NCBI RefSeq assembly: GCF_000317145.1
Contig: NC_019697.1
Coordinates: forward strand, 124,001-188,000
Reading direction: 5' to 3'
DNA length: 64,000 bases
Source: Chamaesiphon minutus PCC 6605
GTDB lineage: Bacteria > Cyanobacteriota > Cyanobacteriia > Cyanobacteriales > Chamaesiphonaceae
Part shown: positions 8,371-60,054 of the stretch, piece after piece
Layout: the number at the start of each line of letters is the position of its first letter
Position numbering within the stretch: position 1 is the first letter of the stretch
The notes under the pieces: model-generated
Databases searched by the model: none
Told to the model about the DNA's origin: nothing
The model's input: the letters and a program-made list of their open reading frames with translations, nothing else
Position numbers and translations under genes: made by a program

Positions 8371-9594
8371 TTGCTGTTAGCAGTTAAGTATCGCCCGATC
8401 GTTAGTTGGCATTTTGTGTGTAACTCGATCGACACAGGGGGTACTATAATATATGTCCGATTTACTCTACAACTAATTCCTTTGAACTCAAGTTGCTCGA
8501 AAGTCGTGCCGAGTCGCCAGCCTCTTACTGACTGGCAAAAAACGGGTCTGAAATTGACTTCTAGTCAGCAAGGGCGGGATGTGGTACTCGCGATCGATTT
8601 GACTGGAAGTGTACGATTGAATGATGAAGGGAGATTGCGCCTGAAGCAGATTATTCAGGATAGTTTGCGTCCCGGCGATGCGGTATATGTTGCGCCATTT
8701 GCATCGACTGTAAACCCGTTGCAACCGCAAATAGATTGTTTAGCAGCAGATGCGGCAATTCCTTTTAGTGGCAAGCCAGCCGATATCGAGCGAATTCTTC
8801 AGAAATTACCGCTCGAATCTAGCGACGCGCTCCAGAATACTGATATTCAGATTGCGGAGGCGACAATTTATAAGGGGTTGGCGCAGTTAAATCAGTGTCG
8901 GCTCACTGCGAACAAACCAGTGAGAACGCAGTCGGTAGTATGGATTACGGATGCGCCGCTGTTAACCAAACCAGGCATCGCATCGGCTGTCTGGGTAGAG
9001 ACGCCTGCCAGTAGCCCTTATCGCCAGCAAAATTCGGCACAGAGTCAGGAGCGACAAGCGTGGATCGATGCTTTACCGCTAAAATTGCGATCGCAAAACA
9101 TCGGTAACTATAACTTGAGCGTGGTGGATATCGCGCCGACGGTGCAGGAATTTTGCACGCCAGCACCAGGTGGGCAAGAAACTTGCTTGATTGATAGTTA
9201 TTTATTCCAACAGCTTTGGTTGCCAGTTTTGCTGAGTTCTGTGGGCATATTAACAGCACTGGCGGGTGGTATTTGGTGGTTTAGATATTGGCGGAGTCTC
9301 CAGCAAGCTTGGAAGCTGACGATTGCGGATGAAAGCGACTCGGAGCATCAGATTTGTTATCTTCGCAATCGGCAACGGCTGGGCATTGGCAGCGATATCG
9401 AATGTCAGGGGCACGATATTCGCGGTTATTTGAGGCGAGAAGGAAATCGGTTATTCCTGGAGCCGAGTGATGAGTTGCCAATTCATTACCAAAATCGCGA
9501 AGTCACTCAACGTCAGATCCTTACAGGCAGATGTATTCGGCTCCATTATCCTCACAAGTCTCGCGATTTGGAACTAATTATTACGATTAGCTAA
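8371..9594 (+). CDS. Membrane-anchored VWA-domain protein with FHA-like C-terminus
   Basis: 407 residues from a TTG start that I do not trust: there is no in-frame ATG for the first 75 codons, and GTG codons occur at residues 16 and 46. A von Willebrand A domain runs from about 70 to 260, with a variant MIDAS motif DLTGS (76-80) followed by a PGDAVYVAPFAS strand. A single membrane helix lies at about 283-304, followed by basic residues (RYWR), which places the last 100 residues in the cytoplasm. That tail has RLGIGSDIEC...LxLEPSD...LTGRCIRLHY, reminiscent of a phosphopeptide-binding FHA fold (inference). It precedes the tubulin-like gene on the same strand with a 275-base gap. VWA domains bind partners through metal. 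Confidence 0.7.
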   Translation: MLLAVKYRPIVSWHFVCNSIDTGGTIIYVRFTLQLIPLNSSCSKVVPSRQPLTDWQKTGLKLTSSQQGRDVVLAIDLTGSVRLNDEGRLRLKQIIQDSLRPGDAVYVAPFASTVNPLQPQIDCLAADAAIPFSGKPADIERILQKLPLESSDALQNTDIQIAEATIYKGLAQLNQCRLTANKPVRTQSVVWITDAPLLTKPGIASAVWVETPASSPYRQQNSAQSQERQAWIDALPLKLRSQNIGNYNLSVVDIAPTVQEFCTPAPGGQETCLIDSYLFQQLWLPVLLSSVGILTALAGGIWWFRYWRSLQQAWKLTIADESDSEHQICYLRNRQRLGIGSDIECQGHDIRGYLRREGNRLFLEPSDELPIHYQNREVTQRQILTGRCIRLHYPHKSRDLELIITIS

Positions 9595-9596
9595 AC

Positions 9597-9641
9597 CGGG
9601 GCGCGGAGAGCGGGGCGTGGGGCGCGGGGCGCGGGGAGATA
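9597..9641 (+). repeat. G-rich low-complexity tract
   Basis: Runs of GGGG separated by CGC, AGA and CGTG directly after the VWA stop codon. The tract could form G-quadruplexes. Similar GCGGGGAGCGGGG blocks occur near 40585, 45068, 48492 and throughout 59467-59572. Confidence 0.6.
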
Positions 9642-9869
9642 ATGCCGTATATTAAATTAGCAACACCAAATTTTAGATACTTACTATAGTGGTTCTCAAG
9701 CTAGTAAGGTATATTGACGCCTAACCACTAACCACTCACTCCATCGACTCCATACCTCATCAACGAGGGAATGGCTATACTCCAAGTTATCAATTAGTAA
9801 ATTAAACTCAAACCCTTTCCCTTTTTGCCCTGAATTCACTAAATTTCGCTGCAAACTACCTTAACAATT

Positions 9870-12800
9870 ATGTCTCAAACTATCCAGAGAACTCTGTGCA
9901 TTGGCTTAGGCGGTACGGGACGCGATGTGTTGATGCAGATTCGGCGGCTGATAATCGATCGATATGGGAGGCTAGATGCTTTGCCAGTGGTGGGTTTCGT
10001 TCATATCGATGCGGATAAGGGGGCGAGTGATATTTCGGGTTTGAGTACGGGAAATAGTTATCGGGGTGAAAATATTTTGTTTACACCTGCCGAGCGTGTG
10101 ATTGCGACGATGACTAGTCAGGAAATCGACCAATTGCTGGGTGGATTGGAGCAACAGGGTGAATTCGACCGTAAAAGTCCTTACGACCATATTAAATCCT
10201 GGTTGCCACCTCAACTAATTCGGAATGTAAAGGCGATCGAAGATGGTGCGGGTGGGATTCGCCCGGTGGGGCGGCTATCTTTCTTTCACAATTATCGCAA
10301 GATTAAAGCCGCGATCGAGACGGCTGAAAATCGCACTAGAGGGCACGAGCAAGCGATGCTAGGGCATGGATTTAGTGTCGAGCCAGGTTTGAACATTTTT
10401 GTAGTCGGCTCGTTATGTGGCGGCACTGGCAGCGGGATGTTTTTGGATGTGGCGTATGCGCTGCGCAAGGCTTACGGAGATATTGAGAATAAATTAGTCG
10501 GCTACTGGATAATTAGCCCGGAACTCTATGGCGATACGCCGAGCATGAATGCCAATGTCTATGCTGCACTGAAGGAATTAAATCATTATGCAGCTAGTAA
10601 TACGCGGTTTGAAGCTTGTTACGACCCCCAGCAGCTCGTGAATATTAATGAGGATCGTCCGCCATTTGATTTTACTTACATCCTCTCCAATCGCACGGCG
10701 ACAGATTATCGCATTCTGGATAAAAATAAGCTCTGTAATGTTGTCGCTCACAAAATTTTCCTCGACTTTGGCGATGAGTTGACTTCGGTAATTAAGAGTC
10801 AAAAAGACAATTTTCGGGATAAACTTACGCGCTTAGACAGTCATCCTCGGCGAAATATTCAACGCTATTTGACATTTGGATTGGCAAAAATCTATTCGCC
10901 CCAAGATCGGATTGGTAAAATGGCACTGACGAAAGTCAGTCAGCGATTGGTAAAATTTTGGCTTAAAGGGATCGGGCAAAGTCCAGATCCGGGGCTATTA
11001 TTAAATCGCTTTTTATCGAAGTGGGGCGACTCGGATCTAGAGCGCGCATTCCCGTATCGGTTGCAAGGGATGGTGCTGGATAATGGCAAAACATTCGTGC
11101 AAGCTCTGAAGGCTTGGGGGACAAAAATAGAGCAAGAAATTGGGCTGGTGCAAAAACCGGACGATCGATCTCAACTACTATTACAATTACGCAGTGAAAC
11201 TCGCGCCCAATTTCGGAAAGTTCAGCCGGGAGAAAGTGACGATATTCGCGGTGCGTGGTTGACTCGTATTCAAAAAACACAACCTCAACTTACCAATTCG
11301 ATCGTTAATGAGATCGGGCAATTCTTTGGTGAGTTATTGACGCCATCGCATCCAGAATTTTCGCTCAATAGTGCGCGAGGTTGGCTCGAAGCGATCTTGA
11401 CGCAGATTAATGATTATCAACGCGGTTTGGAAGATTATATTCAAACTAAAGATGGTTTAGCTACGCCCGAAGATCTCGATACTCAATGGCGAAGTGCCGA
11501 GCGAAGGCTGCAAGATCTGGAGGAAAAGAAAGGATTTTTGGGGGTATTAGATAATAACAAACAGAAAAATAAAGATTTTCAGGTAGAAGCAACTCAAATC
11601 GTTACGAATACGAAGAAGTTAATTCAGGAAAACTTCGATTATCAACTGCATAAATCAGCTTTAGTTATTGCGACAGAAGTTTCGAGCTTCATTCGAGCGC
11701 TAATTCAACAAGCTGGTACGCTGTCTCAATTATTAACATCTGTAGAGCGCAACTTTGAAAAGTGCGCCGAAGATCTAGAACGACTCAATACCGACGGTAT
11801 CACGGGAGAAGCTTTATTCTCACCAGAGGATGCGAATACTTGCTATCTGGATTTCTTACCCGAACAAAATGAGAAAGCCATTCTCATCGATATTAGCGGT
11901 CAAATTCTCACCGATAAATTCATCTTTGTTGAGAAGTCATTATTATACTTCCTGGTACAAGTTACCGATGAAGAAAAGGTAGCAACTAGCTCGATTCGTT
12001 ATCAAGTGCGATCGCCAGATGTAGACGATCGATCATTAGGCACTAATATTACAGCCACGATCGATAAGATCTTTGGCACTCAAGCAATCGGCTCGTTACA
12101 GCCAGTGATGGCGAGATTTCTCCAGAAATATCCGCTGGCTTCTGGTAATGCCGAACGACGAATGCGTCAAATTATTAGTGAAGCCCAACCCTTACTACCA
12201 TTATTAGTCAGAGACGGACATTTTTATGAGGATGGTGGTAATAAGTCAGAGATAATTGCCTTCACCCGCACTGACGATCGATCGAGTCAACAACTGCAAG
12301 AATTACTAACCAGAAATGTCGGCATTGCCGAATCAACAATTAAATCCATTCAAAATAATAGCGAGATCGTCATTGTCAATGAGTATGCAGCTTTTCCCCT
12401 ACGGTTGATTCAAGGAATCGATCGAATGCGCGAACACTACGATCGCGAATACTCGCAAAATCGATCGCGAATTCACAACGATTATCGGCAAGTTTTCTCA
12501 GAAATTATTCCACCTGATGCACGGCGGATGGAAGAGATGCAAGATGCTTTTTATGCTTGCTTAGCTTTTGGCATATTAACAGCACAAGATAACTGTTATC
12601 TCTATGAAATTGAGGATGAATTTGGTATTAGCAAAAACTCCATTCAACTAAGTTTAGTGTGGAGCGAAGCATTAGAACAGATCTCCAAAGCTGTTGGTAT
12701 CGCTAATAGCCTCAACGCTCGTCGGAAAGATATTATTACTGAAATTCAAACCGATCCCAGTCAGTGGCAAGATCTATATTTACCCCGACTCAAAACCTTT

Positions 12801-13055
12801 ATTCAGTATGTGGTGGGACTTCCCAGAGAACACCCCAACTACCCCGAAATTGGCATTGTTTGGGGTGAAGATATGACGATCGATCGAGCGGCTACTGAAG
12901 GGATTTTGAAACGGTTGTGGGGCTATTTGGACAAGTTAGCTAAAACAAATTTGGTTAATTCTAGTAAAACTCTCCAGGCTCAACGTCCCACGACTCAAGA
13001 CCGAGAGTCTTCGCTGGGGGAAATCGATGCTGATATCATCGATCCTCGTGTTTGA
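9870..13055 (+). CDS. Large tubulin/FtsZ-like GTPase-domain protein
   Basis: 1061 residues. The N-terminus has a Rossmann glycine loop CIGLGGTGRDVL (residues about 10-21), followed by the tubulin/FtsZ signature GGTGSGM at 184-190 in the context IFVVGSLCGGTGSGMFLD, where the GTP phosphates bind. The tubulin-like region seems to span roughly 1-320. The remaining 740 residues are mostly helical with charged coiled-coil stretches, far beyond the size of FtsZ. It is not FtsZ: the sequence around the signature differs and no FtsZ T7-loop motif is obvious. Makarova and Koonin (2010) described an FtsZ-like family linked to a VWA protein and OmpA-type membrane proteins, proposed as a membrane-remodelling system. 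The neighbours here (VWA upstream; MotA- and OmpA-like downstream) fit that description. Confidence 0.8.
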   Translation: MSQTIQRTLCIGLGGTGRDVLMQIRRLIIDRYGRLDALPVVGFVHIDADKGASDISGLSTGNSYRGENILFTPAERVIATMTSQEIDQLLGGLEQQGEFDRKSPYDHIKSWLPPQLIRNVKAIEDGAGGIRPVGRLSFFHNYRKIKAAIETAENRTRGHEQAMLGHGFSVEPGLNIFVVGSLCGGTGSGMFLDVAYALRKAYGDIENKLVGYWIISPELYGDTPSMNANVYAALKELNHYAASNTRFEACYDPQQLVNINEDRPPFDFTYILSNRTATDYRILDKNKLCNVVAHKIFLDFGDELTSVIKSQKDNFRDKLTRLDSHPRRNIQRYLTFGLAKIYSPQDRIGKMALTKVSQRLVKFWLKGIGQSPDPGLLLNRFLSKWGDSDLERAFPYRLQGMVLDNGKTFVQALKAWGTKIEQEIGLVQKPDDRSQLLLQLRSETRAQFRKVQPGESDDIRGAWLTRIQKTQPQLTNSIVNEIGQFFGELLTPSHPEFSLNSARGWLEAILTQINDYQRGLEDYIQTKDGLATPEDLDTQWRSAERRLQDLEEKKGFLGVLDNNKQKNKDFQVEATQIVTNTKKLIQENFDYQLHKSALVIATEVSSFIRALIQQAGTLSQLLTSVERNFEKCAEDLERLNTDGITGEALFSPEDANTCYLDFLPEQNEKAILIDISGQILTDKFIFVEKSLLYFLVQVTDEEKVATSSIRYQVRSPDVDDRSLGTNITATIDKIFGTQAIGSLQPVMARFLQKYPLASGNAERRMRQIISEAQPLLPLLVRDGHFYEDGGNKSEIIAFTRTDDRSSQQLQELLTRNVGIAESTIKSIQNNSEIVIVNEYAAFPLRLIQGIDRMREHYDREYSQNRSRIHNDYRQVFSEIIPPDARRMEEMQDAFYACLAFGILTAQDNCYLYEIEDEFGISKNSIQLSLVWSEALEQISKAVGIANSLNARRKDIITEIQTDPSQWQDLYLPRLKTFIQYVVGLPREHPNYPEIGIVWGEDMTIDRAATEGILKRLWGYLDKLAKTNLVNSSKTLQAQRPTTQDRESSLGEIDADIIDPRV

Positions 13056-13322
13056 GGGGGTGCTGCTAGCCCGTTTGAAAAGGCTGTATGCGAGATTGTT
13101 CGGAGGCGGAAATCTCACCCACCCCGCCCTACGGGCACCCCTCCCAGGAGGGGATTTACCCACCCTGCCCTAATTCCTTCACTTCGTGACGCTACGCGAA
13201 CGGAAAGGCTGTGCCTACGGCAGGCTGCGCCAACGCCAACGGGTACCCTTCCCAGGAGGGGATTTTCTACACCAGCCCTCCGCTTTACAAGGGAGTAGGT
13301 AAAAAGCCCCCCCCTTATAAGG

Positions 13323-13556
13323 CTACCGTGTATACACAAGTCTGATTGACTTCGTTTCTAGATCTAAATCTCCCAAACCCCCTTAAAAAGGGGGCTAAGA
13401 TCCGGTCAAAGTCCCCCTTGAAAAGGGGGATTTAGCGGCTCCCGTAACTCCTTTGGAGTGGCTGCGCCAACGTCGGGTTCCCCGACGGATTAGGGAGACA
13501 AGACAGGGGGATTTCTAGGGTTTTCGCTTCCCTCCAGACTTGTGTATACACGGTAG
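13323..13556 (-). mobile_element. MITE-like element, copy 2 (234 bp, inverted)
   Basis: Same 22-bp terminal inverted repeats and same length as copy 1. It is flanked by CCTTATAAGG (13313-13322) and CCTTTATAAGG (13557-13567): a 10-bp duplication with one extra T. It differs from copy 3 at only two positions. The target was a GC-rich palindrome (CCCCCTTATAAGG...). The element separates the tubulin-like gene from the MotA-like gene. The rest of the gap 13056-13661 holds other GC-rich repeats (CCCTACGGGCACCCCTCCCA and similar) and no gene. Confidence 0.92.
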
Positions 13557-13661
13557 CCTTTATAAGGGGGGGTTGGGGGGGTAATACTACTCGAAACGTA
13601 GCAATTAGATTTTTAAAAACCGTCCGAACTAGATATCTACCATTAATTCGATCGATAACAA

Positions 13662-15647
13662 ATGCAAATATTTACCTCAATCCCACTAGAAACTAAGCTA
13701 GCCATCTTAGTTGCAGTCATCTTACCTGCGATCGTGGTATTTTATTTACGGATTAGTCTCTACCAAAGACTTCAAGACCTAAATCAGAAAATCTCTCGCT
13801 TACTAATTAGCGGTGAAGCAGAAGGAATTCAGCCGGAGATCGTCAAGCGACTGCGAAGTCGATATCAGCAGGCAAGTCAAAAGTTAGAGCATGTGAATAC
13901 GATCGCTTTAATCGATAGCGTTTATCAGGATGAAACAATTGCTTATGGTAAAGTTAAAATCGAGTACGATCGGTTAGACAATATCACCAAAGTATTACCT
14001 AACTTATTAATTGCTTTTGGGTTAATCGGGACTTTTTTTGGCATTACTAATAACTTAACTAATATCTCAGAGATCGTCACGGGCTTCAGTCAAAGTAACC
14101 CAGATATTAGTAAGTTAGTGCAAGGATTGCAATCGCCGTTGCAAGATATGGGGATTGCTTTTTCGACCAGTTTATTTGGATTATTATTCGGCTCGGCATT
14201 AACTATAATTAATACTGCTTACAATACCAATATTGCTAAATCCAAATTGATGGCTGGACTCGAAGATTATCTCGACAATATTTATAAGCCAACTGTCGAA
14301 GGCAATACGCGGCTGGATCTGGCGATCGAGCGGATGGTAAGGCAACAGCAAGAGTTTCTGACTAGATTTCATGAAAATGTCGGTGCGGCATTAGAAAGAT
14401 CGTTTGGGAAAGCTGCTAGTCAAATTGCCGAAGAGTGTAGCAGAATAAATAAGATTGCCGAAAATGTCTATACAAATTTCTCAAATGCAGCGGGAACGAT
14501 TTCTACAGGCGCGACTACCTTTCAACAAGCAGCCACATCGCTCGAACATCAGACTAAAACTCTCGCCGAATCGCTAACTGGATTTAAAACTGGTGCAGAC
14601 ACATTTAAACTAGCGGCAAACCAAATCGAACATAATAATATCGTCCAAAATCTCGATCGAGTATTAGCACAACTCCACACCAATCAACAAGCCTTTACTA
14701 ATTCTACCCAAACTCTACAAACATCCCTCGTTGGCATTGGAGCCAGCAACCAAGTTGCCGCACAATTAGCACAACAAGTTTACCAAACCTGGCAAACTTC
14801 TACTACCCAAATTGCTACAGCATCTGAAACTATCGGCACTAGTGCTGCCATGTTTCAAAAATCGGCTACCGCACTGGAAACTCAAACACAGACGTTTTTA
14901 GATGCAATTCCCCAGCTTCAATCTGGAATCGAAAGCTTTGCCACAGCCGCAAATAAAGTCAAGACCAATAATATCATCAAACATCTCAATAGTTTAGTCG
15001 AAAATCTCGCCGTTACCCAATCAGCATTTACTAACTCGACTCAAACTTTGACAGATAGCGTCGCCGAAATTACGAGTAGCAATCAACAAACTAATGAAAT
15101 TGCCGATCGAGTTTATCAAAGCTTAGAAAAAACTACCACAAGCATCCAATCGGGGGCAAATACCTTCGTTAATGCCGCTCAAATCGTCCGTGATAGTTCG
15201 ATCGCTATCGAGCTAGCTAACGCCGCTGACAAATGGCAAAATGCCCAGACTGAGTTTGCGAATTCTACAGCAGTCTTCAGTCAAGCATCACAAAATATTC
15301 AGCCGATTGTCACCAGATTAGAACCAGCAATTGCCTCGATCGATCGAGCTATCAATACGATCGATCGCTTCGGCTCGGAAGTAGTCAATCTGAGTCAAAA
15401 TACCGCCCAAATTTCGGAATCGACTCAGACTGCGATTGCTGGATTCGATCGCAATTATCAAAAAGTATTGCACAGTACCGACCTATCCATTCAAGAAATT
15501 AATATTATCAATCGAGCCAACTGGCAATCGCTAATAGATCTGTTAGAGCCAAAAATTCAAGCAGACAAAGAGTCTTTACGAAAATTACTAGCAGTAATTG
15601 ATAAATTAGATCTAATCGTCTCAAATATTGGCATCGACAAAGCATAG
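13662..15647 (+). CDS. MotA/TolQ/ExbB-family protein with long helical tail (ZorA-like)
   Basis: 661 residues. One membrane helix at about 10-28 is followed by a cytoplasmic helical stretch. Two more helices lie at about 112-133 (LPNLLIAFGLIGTFFGITNN) and 165-190 (GIAFSTSLFGLLFGSALTII), the conserved MotA/TolQ/ExbB channel pair. From about 225 to the end the protein is a long helical, Gln/Thr/Ser-rich coiled coil with an imperfect repeat of about 130 residues (AFTNSTQTL occurs twice in it; compare FKLAANQIEHNN with FATAANKVKTNN). This shape, a stator core plus long tail, is that of ZorA in Zorya defence systems. The gap to the OmpA-like gene is 35 bases, so the two are a stator pair. Inner membrane. 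Confidence 0.8.
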   Translation: MQIFTSIPLETKLAILVAVILPAIVVFYLRISLYQRLQDLNQKISRLLISGEAEGIQPEIVKRLRSRYQQASQKLEHVNTIALIDSVYQDETIAYGKVKIEYDRLDNITKVLPNLLIAFGLIGTFFGITNNLTNISEIVTGFSQSNPDISKLVQGLQSPLQDMGIAFSTSLFGLLFGSALTIINTAYNTNIAKSKLMAGLEDYLDNIYKPTVEGNTRLDLAIERMVRQQQEFLTRFHENVGAALERSFGKAASQIAEECSRINKIAENVYTNFSNAAGTISTGATTFQQAATSLEHQTKTLAESLTGFKTGADTFKLAANQIEHNNIVQNLDRVLAQLHTNQQAFTNSTQTLQTSLVGIGASNQVAAQLAQQVYQTWQTSTTQIATASETIGTSAAMFQKSATALETQTQTFLDAIPQLQSGIESFATAANKVKTNNIIKHLNSLVENLAVTQSAFTNSTQTLTDSVAEITSSNQQTNEIADRVYQSLEKTTTSIQSGANTFVNAAQIVRDSSIAIELANAADKWQNAQTEFANSTAVFSQASQNIQPIVTRLEPAIASIDRAINTIDRFGSEVVNLSQNTAQISESTQTAIAGFDRNYQKVLHSTDLSIQEINIINRANWQSLIDLLEPKIQADKESLRKLLAVIDKLDLIVSNIGIDKA

Positions 15648-15682
15648 CAACAGCGATCTATTCAGAATTCATTCAAAATATT

Positions 15683-16300
15683 ATGTCTAGAAGATTAGTT
15701 AGATCTACCGATGAAGAGGAATTAAATATCTTTCAAGCATTTACCGATCTAATGTCCAATGCTTTTATGATTATGAGCTTTTTATTATTGATTAGTTTAT
15801 TGCAGTCAATATCGATTGCTAAAAAACTCGAATCTGCATCCCCAATTATCATCGATGAAAAGTCTGGCAACTTCAAATTTCCGTCGGGAAGTGCCGAACT
15901 AACTCCAGACTTACAAAAATACATTCAAAATACCATCTTACCCGAAATCATCAAAGCCACAGCCAAAGGCAATATTGACTTTATCCAAATTATCGGTCAC
16001 ACCGATAGTCAGGGAGTTAGCAATGCTAGTAACCTAGATAATAAACTCACCGCAGCAGCTACTGGCACCGAACGAATTAATAATTTAAAAGCTGGTTCTA
16101 ATACCGATCTAGGACTGATGAGGGCAGTAGCAGTAGTCCAGTTTTTAAATACCAAGGGATTGAATAAAGTTAGGTTTAGAGCTTATTCTGCTGGTCAATT
16201 ATATCTACCTTCGGGCGAACTTGCCAAGATCGATCGCGATGCCGATGATACTAGACGCCGGATTGAAATTCGCTTTATTCCATATGGACAGAAGAAATAA
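15683..16300 (+). CDS. MotB/OmpA-family peptidoglycan-binding stator subunit (ZorB-like)
   Basis: 205 residues. A short N-terminal tail is followed by one membrane helix (about 23-43, LMSNAFMIMSFLLLISLLQ), preceded by Asp22, which sits where the proton-carrying aspartate of MotB/ZorB lies. The OmpA-like domain follows: FKFPSGSAELTPDLQ, IQIIGHTDSQG, LMRAVAVVQFL, and the peptidoglycan-binding end DADDTRRRIEIRFIPY. It pairs with the MotA-like protein just upstream. As a pair they should form an ion-driven, cell-wall-anchored motor; what it drives is unknown, and the tubulin-like protein is the obvious candidate partner. Confidence 0.85.
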   Translation: MSRRLVRSTDEEELNIFQAFTDLMSNAFMIMSFLLLISLLQSISIAKKLESASPIIIDEKSGNFKFPSGSAELTPDLQKYIQNTILPEIIKATAKGNIDFIQIIGHTDSQGVSNASNLDNKLTAAATGTERINNLKAGSNTDLGLMRAVAVVQFLNTKGLNKVRFRAYSAGQLYLPSGELAKIDRDADDTRRRIEIRFIPYGQKK

Positions 16301-59774: not shown

Positions 59775-59792
59775 GCGTCCCGCCCCTCAACG

Positions 59793-60026
59793 CTACCGTG
59801 TATACACAAGTCTGGAGGGAAGCGAAAACCCTAGAAATCCCCCTGTCTTGTCTCCCTAATCCGTCGGGGAACCCGACGTTGGCGCAGCCACTCCAAAGGA
59901 GTTACGGGAGCCGCTAAATCCCCCTTTTCAAGGGGGACTTTGACCGGATCTTAGCCCCCTTTTTAAGGGGGTTTGGGGGATTTAGATCTAGAAACGAAGT
60001 CAATCAGACTTGTGTATACACAGTAG
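59793..60026 (+). mobile_element. MITE-like element, copy 3 (234 bp)
   Basis: The same element as copies 1 and 2. The exact 10-bp duplication CCCCTCAACG flanks it (59783-59792 and 60027-60036). The right terminal repeat has one change (CAGTAG instead of CGGTAG). It is inserted in the right arm of the palindrome that also hosts the hairpin at 59726-59774. No gene is seen in 59467-60259. Confidence 0.93.
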
Positions 60027-60054
60027 CCCCTCAACGGGGGGTCTGGGGGTCGGA

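Follow-up and report, generated by a model that had tools for sequence, protein, structure and literature searches.

A set of four genes encoding a VWA membrane protein, a tubulin-like protein, a MotA-like channel subunit and an OmpA-domain stator subunit is a conserved unit in cyanobacteria. We describe it here from a stretch of 64,000 nucleotides, referred to as the window, of the 6.76-Mb genome of Chamaesiphon minutus PCC 6605. An earlier note on this DNA had placed the four genes side by side on one strand, and a check against the list of open reading frames (ORFs) found all four on the forward strand, with the coordinates that the note had given.

Conservation of the gene set

We searched 292 genomes of the phylum for Tubulin_2, the Pfam family of the tubulin-like protein. 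It was matched in 61 of them, in 57 over the cut-off, and 60 stretches around the matches were fetched. The subfamily of the window's protein accounts for 33 loci in 33 genomes, window included, four of them with short or split frames, and broken copies in two further genomes, G187 and G251, bring the number of genomes to 35. A VWA gene lies upstream at 32 of the 33 loci (the remaining one, L058, is at a contig end), and a MotA gene lies downstream, also at 32, followed by an OmpA gene at 30; the exceptions for OmpA are two contig ends, L080 and L084, and L042. The VWA and tubulin genes are separated by 8-22 bp in 26/32 loci. At L079, 4.5 kb of other genes separate MotA from OmpA. In genome G054 the VWA-tubulin pair (L042) is in one place, MotA is at C1:2181726 and OmpA at C1:2931962; the set is thus retained despite its dispersal. 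No fifth gene is common to the loci, the next commonest cluster being present at 9/33. A full-domain MotA (>100 bits) was found in 34 of the 35 genomes with the tubulin subfamily, as opposed to 11 of the 257 others (Fisher 1.1e-33, uncorrected for kinship), and one of these 11, G245, has internal stops.

We also scanned named genomes, retaining the best 80 of 158 relatives. All of these loci are cyanobacterial by title, and the nearest named relative of the window's tubulin-like protein is from Chamaesiphon polymorphus (95% identity in the best segment). Twelve of the 80 have no contig room for all genes. At 64 of the other 68, VWA, MotA and OmpA genes are found in order; the tubulin gene is alone at L109 and L155, the motor pair is upstream with another MotA downstream at L132, and OmpA is upstream on the opposite strand at L145. 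Counted gene by gene where there is room, VWA is in place at 70/73, MotA at 73/77 and OmpA at 67/71. Extra motor-gene copies are present near the main set at L153 and L132, the former also having a weak tubulin remnant.

The earlier note had proposed a genome survey asking if the MotA/OmpA pair lies near the tubulin/VWA pair beyond chance; the survey has now been run and the link is far beyond chance. A chance neighborhood is ruled out by the 33 loci, by the named loci (best 80 of 158) and by the Deinococcus plasmids described below. A phage- or plasmid-borne element in cyanobacteria was likewise rejected: there was one weak phage match, and none of the 11 plasmid records obtained with the window's tubulin-like protein as query spanned 80% of it. 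The lone cyanobacterial plasmid among these records (L044) bears a Tubulin_2 protein of the other branch. Three loci of another cyanobacterial Tubulin_2 branch, L088-L090, have a VWA-like protein of ~610 aa upstream and a protein of ~1014 aa downstream, as judged by eye from one member each.

Folds and conserved residues of the four proteins

The tubulin-like protein (9870..13055, + strand, 1061 aa), a Tubulin_2 (PF13809) or FtsZl1 protein, matches its Pfam family at E 2.1e-108, with 363 bits against a cut-off of 27. In an alignment of 29 of the 33 subfamily loci (L048, L068, L071 and L076, which have short or split frames, were omitted), all six residues of a GTP-binding loop, GLGGTG (residues 12-17; 9903..9920, +), are invariant in 29/29; we take this loop to be T1. 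The tubulin signature loop GGTGSG (residues 184-189; 10419..10436, +) is equally invariant. A search of the PDB with the tubulin profile gave no tubulin among its matches, and a profile alignment with FtsZ, for which sequence from 11 of 20 FtsZ loci was used, stopped at the GGTGSG loop. The structure model aligns with CetZ1 over 303 of 330 residues, taking in model residues 6-862, and so predicts a tubulin/CetZ fold interrupted by a large helical insertion. The tubulin fold with its GGTGSG motif, as the earlier note had read it, was thus borne out by the structure prediction that the note had proposed, except that the fold is not confined to residues 1-320. Judging from predicted secondary structure, the helical or coiled-coil insertion would occupy approximately residues 367-780 (10968..12209, +), and the C-terminal part of the fold would follow at approximately residues 781-870 (12210..12479, +).

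The product of the MotA gene (13662..15647, +; 661 aa) has three transmembrane (TM) segments and a tail of ~450 residues. Its match to Pfam MotA_ExbB (0.015) is below that family's cut-off, but it matches the PADLOC model of ZorA at 3.7e-14, and the MOTA profile built from its family found five ZorA chains in the PDB (ZorA 9.8e-7) and nothing else below E 0.5. Three TM segments are predicted in 29/32 homologues, and P113-N-L-L, G123-T-F and S170 are invariant. This Thr and this last Ser align with a Thr and a Ser of ZorA in 8vvn. The Zorya motor has a Ser/Thr ring around the channel Asp (PMC11890865), and by analogy the two residues may form such a ring here. The tail (14292..15644, +) varies in length among homologues, whose total length is 508-817 aa; coiled-coil-type matches suggest that it is helical, and we take it to be cytoplasmic.

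The OmpA-like protein (15683..16300, +) comprises one TM segment, as predicted in 30/30 homologues, and an OmpA domain that scores 27.3 bits against a Pfam cut-off of 27.2; it is the genome's sole match to the Pfam OmpA family at E <=0.001. It matches PADLOC ZorB at 3.7e-8, and the OMPA profile found ZorB and PomB in the PDB. The channel aspartate, D22 (AFTDLMSNAFMI; 15746..15748, +), is invariant in 30/30 homologues. The protein has the look of a stator subunit of the inner membrane. The claims that this is a MotA/TolQ-type channel with a long tail, paired with an OmpA/MotB-type protein with an Asp at the channel position, and that the two resemble ZorAB, are upheld.

The fourth protein (8482..9594, +) is a membrane protein with VWA and FHA folds on either side of a TM segment. 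It has zero Pfam matches up to E 1, and its profile found nothing in a PDB sequence search. The AlphaFold2 model (pLDDT 89) has Foldseek matches to VWA and FHA folds, the latter at prob 1.00, E 5.4e-4 and TMt 0.60 against the FHA domain of Rv0020c, with more FHA chains listed. One TM segment is predicted. D39-x-T41-x-S43, together with C225 and C235, is invariant in 32/32 homologues. The membrane VWA protein with an FHA-like tail suggested by the earlier note therefore stands as regards its folds and its TM segment, but its start had to be moved. The listed ORF begins at 8371, the first TTG of the frame; in the alignment the homologues start opposite the TTG at 8482, and the product inferred from there is 370 aa. 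The phosphothreonine-binding residues of FHA domains are GR, SxxH and N. In the alignment, read by eye, IGE and EIRGYL stand roughly at the places expected for GR and SxxH. The FHA-like tail is retained as a fold match in which no phosphothreonine motif was recognized on this reading.

The gap between the tubulin and MotA genes of the window, 606 bp, is unusual, as it is <=100 bp in 26/32 loci. It contains an element resembling a miniature inverted-repeat transposable element (13307..13572, no strand assigned) with 38-nt terminal inverted repeats, which does not belong to the system. The genome has ten near-full copies of it (91-100% identity), three of them within the window, where the other two are at approximately 850-1083 and at 59789-60027.

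Relation to Zorya, plasmid loci and described systems

The earlier note had observed that the locus lacks ZorC. We take PF15611 (EH_Signature) as the ZorC marker; in a search of the 35 genomes it was found at none of the tubulin loci and was present elsewhere in ten. ZorD, ZorE, ZorF and ZorG were not searched by name, and no gene beyond the four is present at >9/33 loci. Nine of the ten ZorC loci were fetched (G039 was omitted). Each has a MOTA-like gene (27-42 bits) and an OMPA-like gene (21-28 bits), then a gene of 461-515 residues; at L241 two ORFs intervene between the first two. In a tree of the first 300 residues of the MotA-like proteins (without L199 and the second MotA-like ORF of L079), the nine ZorC-linked ZorA sequences fall on one side of a branch with SH-aLRT 98.8; this is a quick tree in which the Deinococcus rows are long and their placement is unsure. 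Since ZorC is elsewhere and the ZorC-linked ZorA branch apart, Zorya-like loci and the tubulin-motor system coexist and differ, and Zorya proper is ruled out as the identity of the latter. The ZorC loci themselves (L235-L243) have the layout ZorA-ZorB-EH_Signature, for example ZorA-ZorB-464 aa at L235. Besides the ZorA-like gene, no ORF >722 aa was present in the fetched 12-13.5 kb, so no long ZorD helicase adjoins them, and they are perhaps a ZorABC-only form.

The flanks were compared with the PADLOC models. For the window's subfamily (116 of 118 flanking proteins; 25 of the 81 matched families listed), the commonest matches were mad3 (6), mad8 (4), mad2 (3) and PDC-S03 (3), followed by single methyltransferase-type matches. 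For the other Tubulin_2 loci (103 of 105 flanking proteins; 25 of 64 families listed), they included Csa3 (3), type IIG restriction (2) and single Cas12f-type matches. Of nine neighbors in the window, seven had no match and the other two matched DinG (one) and mad3 (one). Taken at the level of sequence matches, the flanks of the tubulin-motor set do not point to a defense island.

Ten of the 11 plasmid records were examined (H11, which is without annotation, was omitted). Four are Deinococcus plasmids, which encode in succession a TM protein of 418-449 residues, a protein of 107-109 residues with three hydrophobic segments, a tubulin-like protein, a MotA-like protein, an OmpA protein and larger proteins. 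The MotA-like gene is annotated MotA in 1/4, and in D. radiophilus the tubulin gene is split by an IS630 transposase. In profile comparisons with the cyanobacterial families, the Deinococcus tubulin-like family matched at 99.5% over 732 columns and the MotA-like family at 94%, and the channel position is Asp in 4/4. By this comparison the tubulin-MotA-OmpA arrangement is one that recurs in a second phylum. The first Deinococcus gene resembles the VWA protein in layout, as judged by eye. In the Thermales and Azospirillum records, whose gene tables are incomplete and whose unnamed neighbors were not scanned, no MotA annotation was found near the tubulin-like gene. In L226, L231 and L232, plasmids of Thermus and Meiothermus type, a vWA-Tubulin_2-unknown set adjoins a gene annotated brxL, and exonuclease, helicase, DUF1156 or HEPN genes are nearby; a defense setting is possible for this other Tubulin_2 branch.

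The earlier note was correct in assigning the first two genes to the FtsZ-like/VWA/OmpA neighborhood of Makarova and Koonin (2010), which is the FtsZl1 neighborhood of PMC2875224. As far as the accessible text of that paper goes, the two share the tubulin-like family, its long helical region, a vWA partner (at 32/33 loci here, with the VWA fold taken from the model), an OmpA-domain partner in several genomes and occurrence in cyanobacteria. The accessible main text has neither MotA nor TolQ, although one unnamed associated family could be the MotA protein. It treats the OmpA proteins as porin-type membrane proteins, whereas the OmpA protein described here resembles a stator subunit of the inner membrane. 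It did not confidently identify the T6-H7 part; the present model extends over the tubulin fold, which carries an insertion. With ZorAB the set shares a long-tailed MotA-like subunit, an OmpA-domain partner with a channel Asp and an uneven distribution, judging by the available part of PMC11890865; it differs in having no ZorC at the locus, in its VWA and tubulin-like partners and in motor sequences that branch apart. The vWA force transducers with TolQR-like motors, in the accessible text of PMC12204202, are alike in having a one-TM vWA protein beside genes of a 5:2 motor. In those transducers, however, the vWA domain follows the TM helix, or the TM segment gives the channel Asp, whereas here vWA precedes the TM segment, the Asp comes from OmpA and the set includes a tubulin-like protein. 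Flagellar MotAB/PomAB are similar in the channel Asp and the OmpA peptidoglycan-binding domain, and the OMPA profile matches PomB, but the MOTA profile finds ZorA and not MotA in the PDB, and the set is without a flagellar gene.

A candidate envelope machine and its alternatives

With moderate confidence, we read the four genes as coding for a single envelope machine composed of a motor, a tubulin-like GTPase and a VWA adaptor. The MotA-like and OmpA-like proteins would make up an ion-driven motor like MotAB or ZorAB. By analogy, five copies of the former would surround two of the latter, the invariant Asp would lie in the channel and the OmpA domains would grip peptidoglycan. The tail of the MotA-like protein would extend into the cytoplasm and contact the tubulin-like GTPase, the VWA-TM-FHA protein may serve as a membrane adaptor or sensor linking motor and tubulin, and movement of the motor could work on the tubulin-like protein or be gated by it. 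The ion-driven work on a filament proposed in the earlier note would be one form of this. In a more specific version, which we offer only tentatively, at least two phyla would use an ion-driven rotary stator that has a tubulin-family polymer as its output. Controlled by a VWA/FHA membrane adaptor, the machine would convert membrane potential into filament movement or breakage by way of the MotA-like tail.

Several observations weigh against the one-machine reading as a whole. Among the named loci with contig room, MotA is missing at L109, L117, L142 and L155, OmpA is not in place at L109, L132, L145 and L155, and VWA is not in place at L109, L132 and L155. The Deinococcus OmpA match is the weakest of the three profile matches (61% at E 8e-5), with GHTQ in 4/4 where the cyanobacterial family has GHTD, and the first Deinococcus gene has no VWA-family match (0.7% in the profile comparison). 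The motor pair is also found by itself. The OMPA profile has matches in 66/292 genomes, and 47 loci are strong (E <=1e-50), of which 33 are at a subfamily tubulin locus (three decayed: G187, G251 and G235) and 14 are elsewhere. Ten of those 14 are MotA-OmpA pairs without VWA or tubulin, and four have no adjoining MotA; the dispersed set of G054 is among these four. Tubulin therefore rarely occurs without the motor, as MotA is missing at only 4/77 named loci with room, and the motor pair can occur without tubulin; the pair is not obligately tied to it. At the pair-only loci L184-L186, a divergent protein-kinase-like gene with a C-terminal hydrophobic stretch adjoins the pair, as seen by eye.

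A Zorya-like anti-phage system is possible, if doubtful. The tubulin-like GTPase and the VWA protein would then replace ZorC/ZorD or ZorE, and the motor would sense a disturbance of the envelope and pass the signal along the ZorA-like tail to an effector in the cytosol. The nearest solved relatives of the motor are ZorA and ZorB, and according to the available part of PMC11890865 Zorya requires the tail, the peptidoglycan domain and ion flow, its types varying in effector. The patchy distribution (35/292 genomes, two of them with broken copies), the plasmid location in Deinococcus and the genes annotated BrxL, with helicase or HEPN nearby, beside a Tubulin_2 of another branch in Thermales would also fit. 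However, the flanks are not island-like, the set is without a nuclease, and nine genomes have ZorA-ZorB-ZorC loci elsewhere, on a branch apart.

We rate as equally doubtful membrane remodeling or envelope organization by a tubulin-like polymer, to which the motor would give force or a peptidoglycan anchor. Remodeling was suggested for FtsZl1 in the accessible text of PMC2875224, and the predicted tubulin fold and conserved GTP loops agree with it. Against it stand the absence of the set from 257/292 sampled genomes and the several body plans of its carriers, named loci being found in Microcystis, Chamaesiphon, Prochloron, Nostoc and Trichodesmium, among which both unicellular and filamentous life styles occur.

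It seems rather improbable that the operon holds two independent modules, a self-sufficient ZorAB-like pair and a VWA-tubulin pair that are physically unconnected. The ten pair-only loci favor this, and they are mixed among the tubulin-linked ones in the OMPA tree, which excludes matches weaker than 1e-10 and fragments <120 aa (hence L189, L196 and L199); the tubulin-linked label changes 8 times on this tree and 3 times on the MOTA tree, both quick trees with long branches. The co-occurrence in 34/35 genomes, the scattered retention in G054, the gene order in Deinococcus and the rarity of a missing MotA argue the other way. Filament or hormogonium motility was set aside, as unicellular species carry the set.

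As for what the envelope machine does, an accessory role in the envelope is most likely, and a stress or phage response like that of Zorya is about as probable as membrane remodeling. An accessory character is indicated by presence in 35/292 genomes, by the broken copies and by evolution that, on sequence identity, is faster than that of FtsZ: between the window and G039 the tubulin-like proteins are 46% identical and the FtsZ proteins 72%.

The known stator motors of bacteria drive flagella, gliding tracks or outer-membrane transducers or, in Zorya, serve in defense. A MotA-type motor joined with Tubulin_2 was not found in the open-access literature searched, most subscription papers and preprints lying outside it; the tubulin link, if conserved, would be the first pairing of an ion motor with a cytoskeletal protein in that literature. 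It may also answer a question that a reviewer of the 2010 FtsZl1 paper raised, namely by what means an FtsZ-like protein of the cytoplasm could come into contact with OmpA (PMC2875224, accessible text): OmpA would be one of two components of a motor in the inner membrane, and the other component would extend into the cytoplasm. The gene set suggests that, in bacteria, an envelope motor and a cytoskeleton-like protein work together as a machine, and the system is testable in laboratory cyanobacteria.

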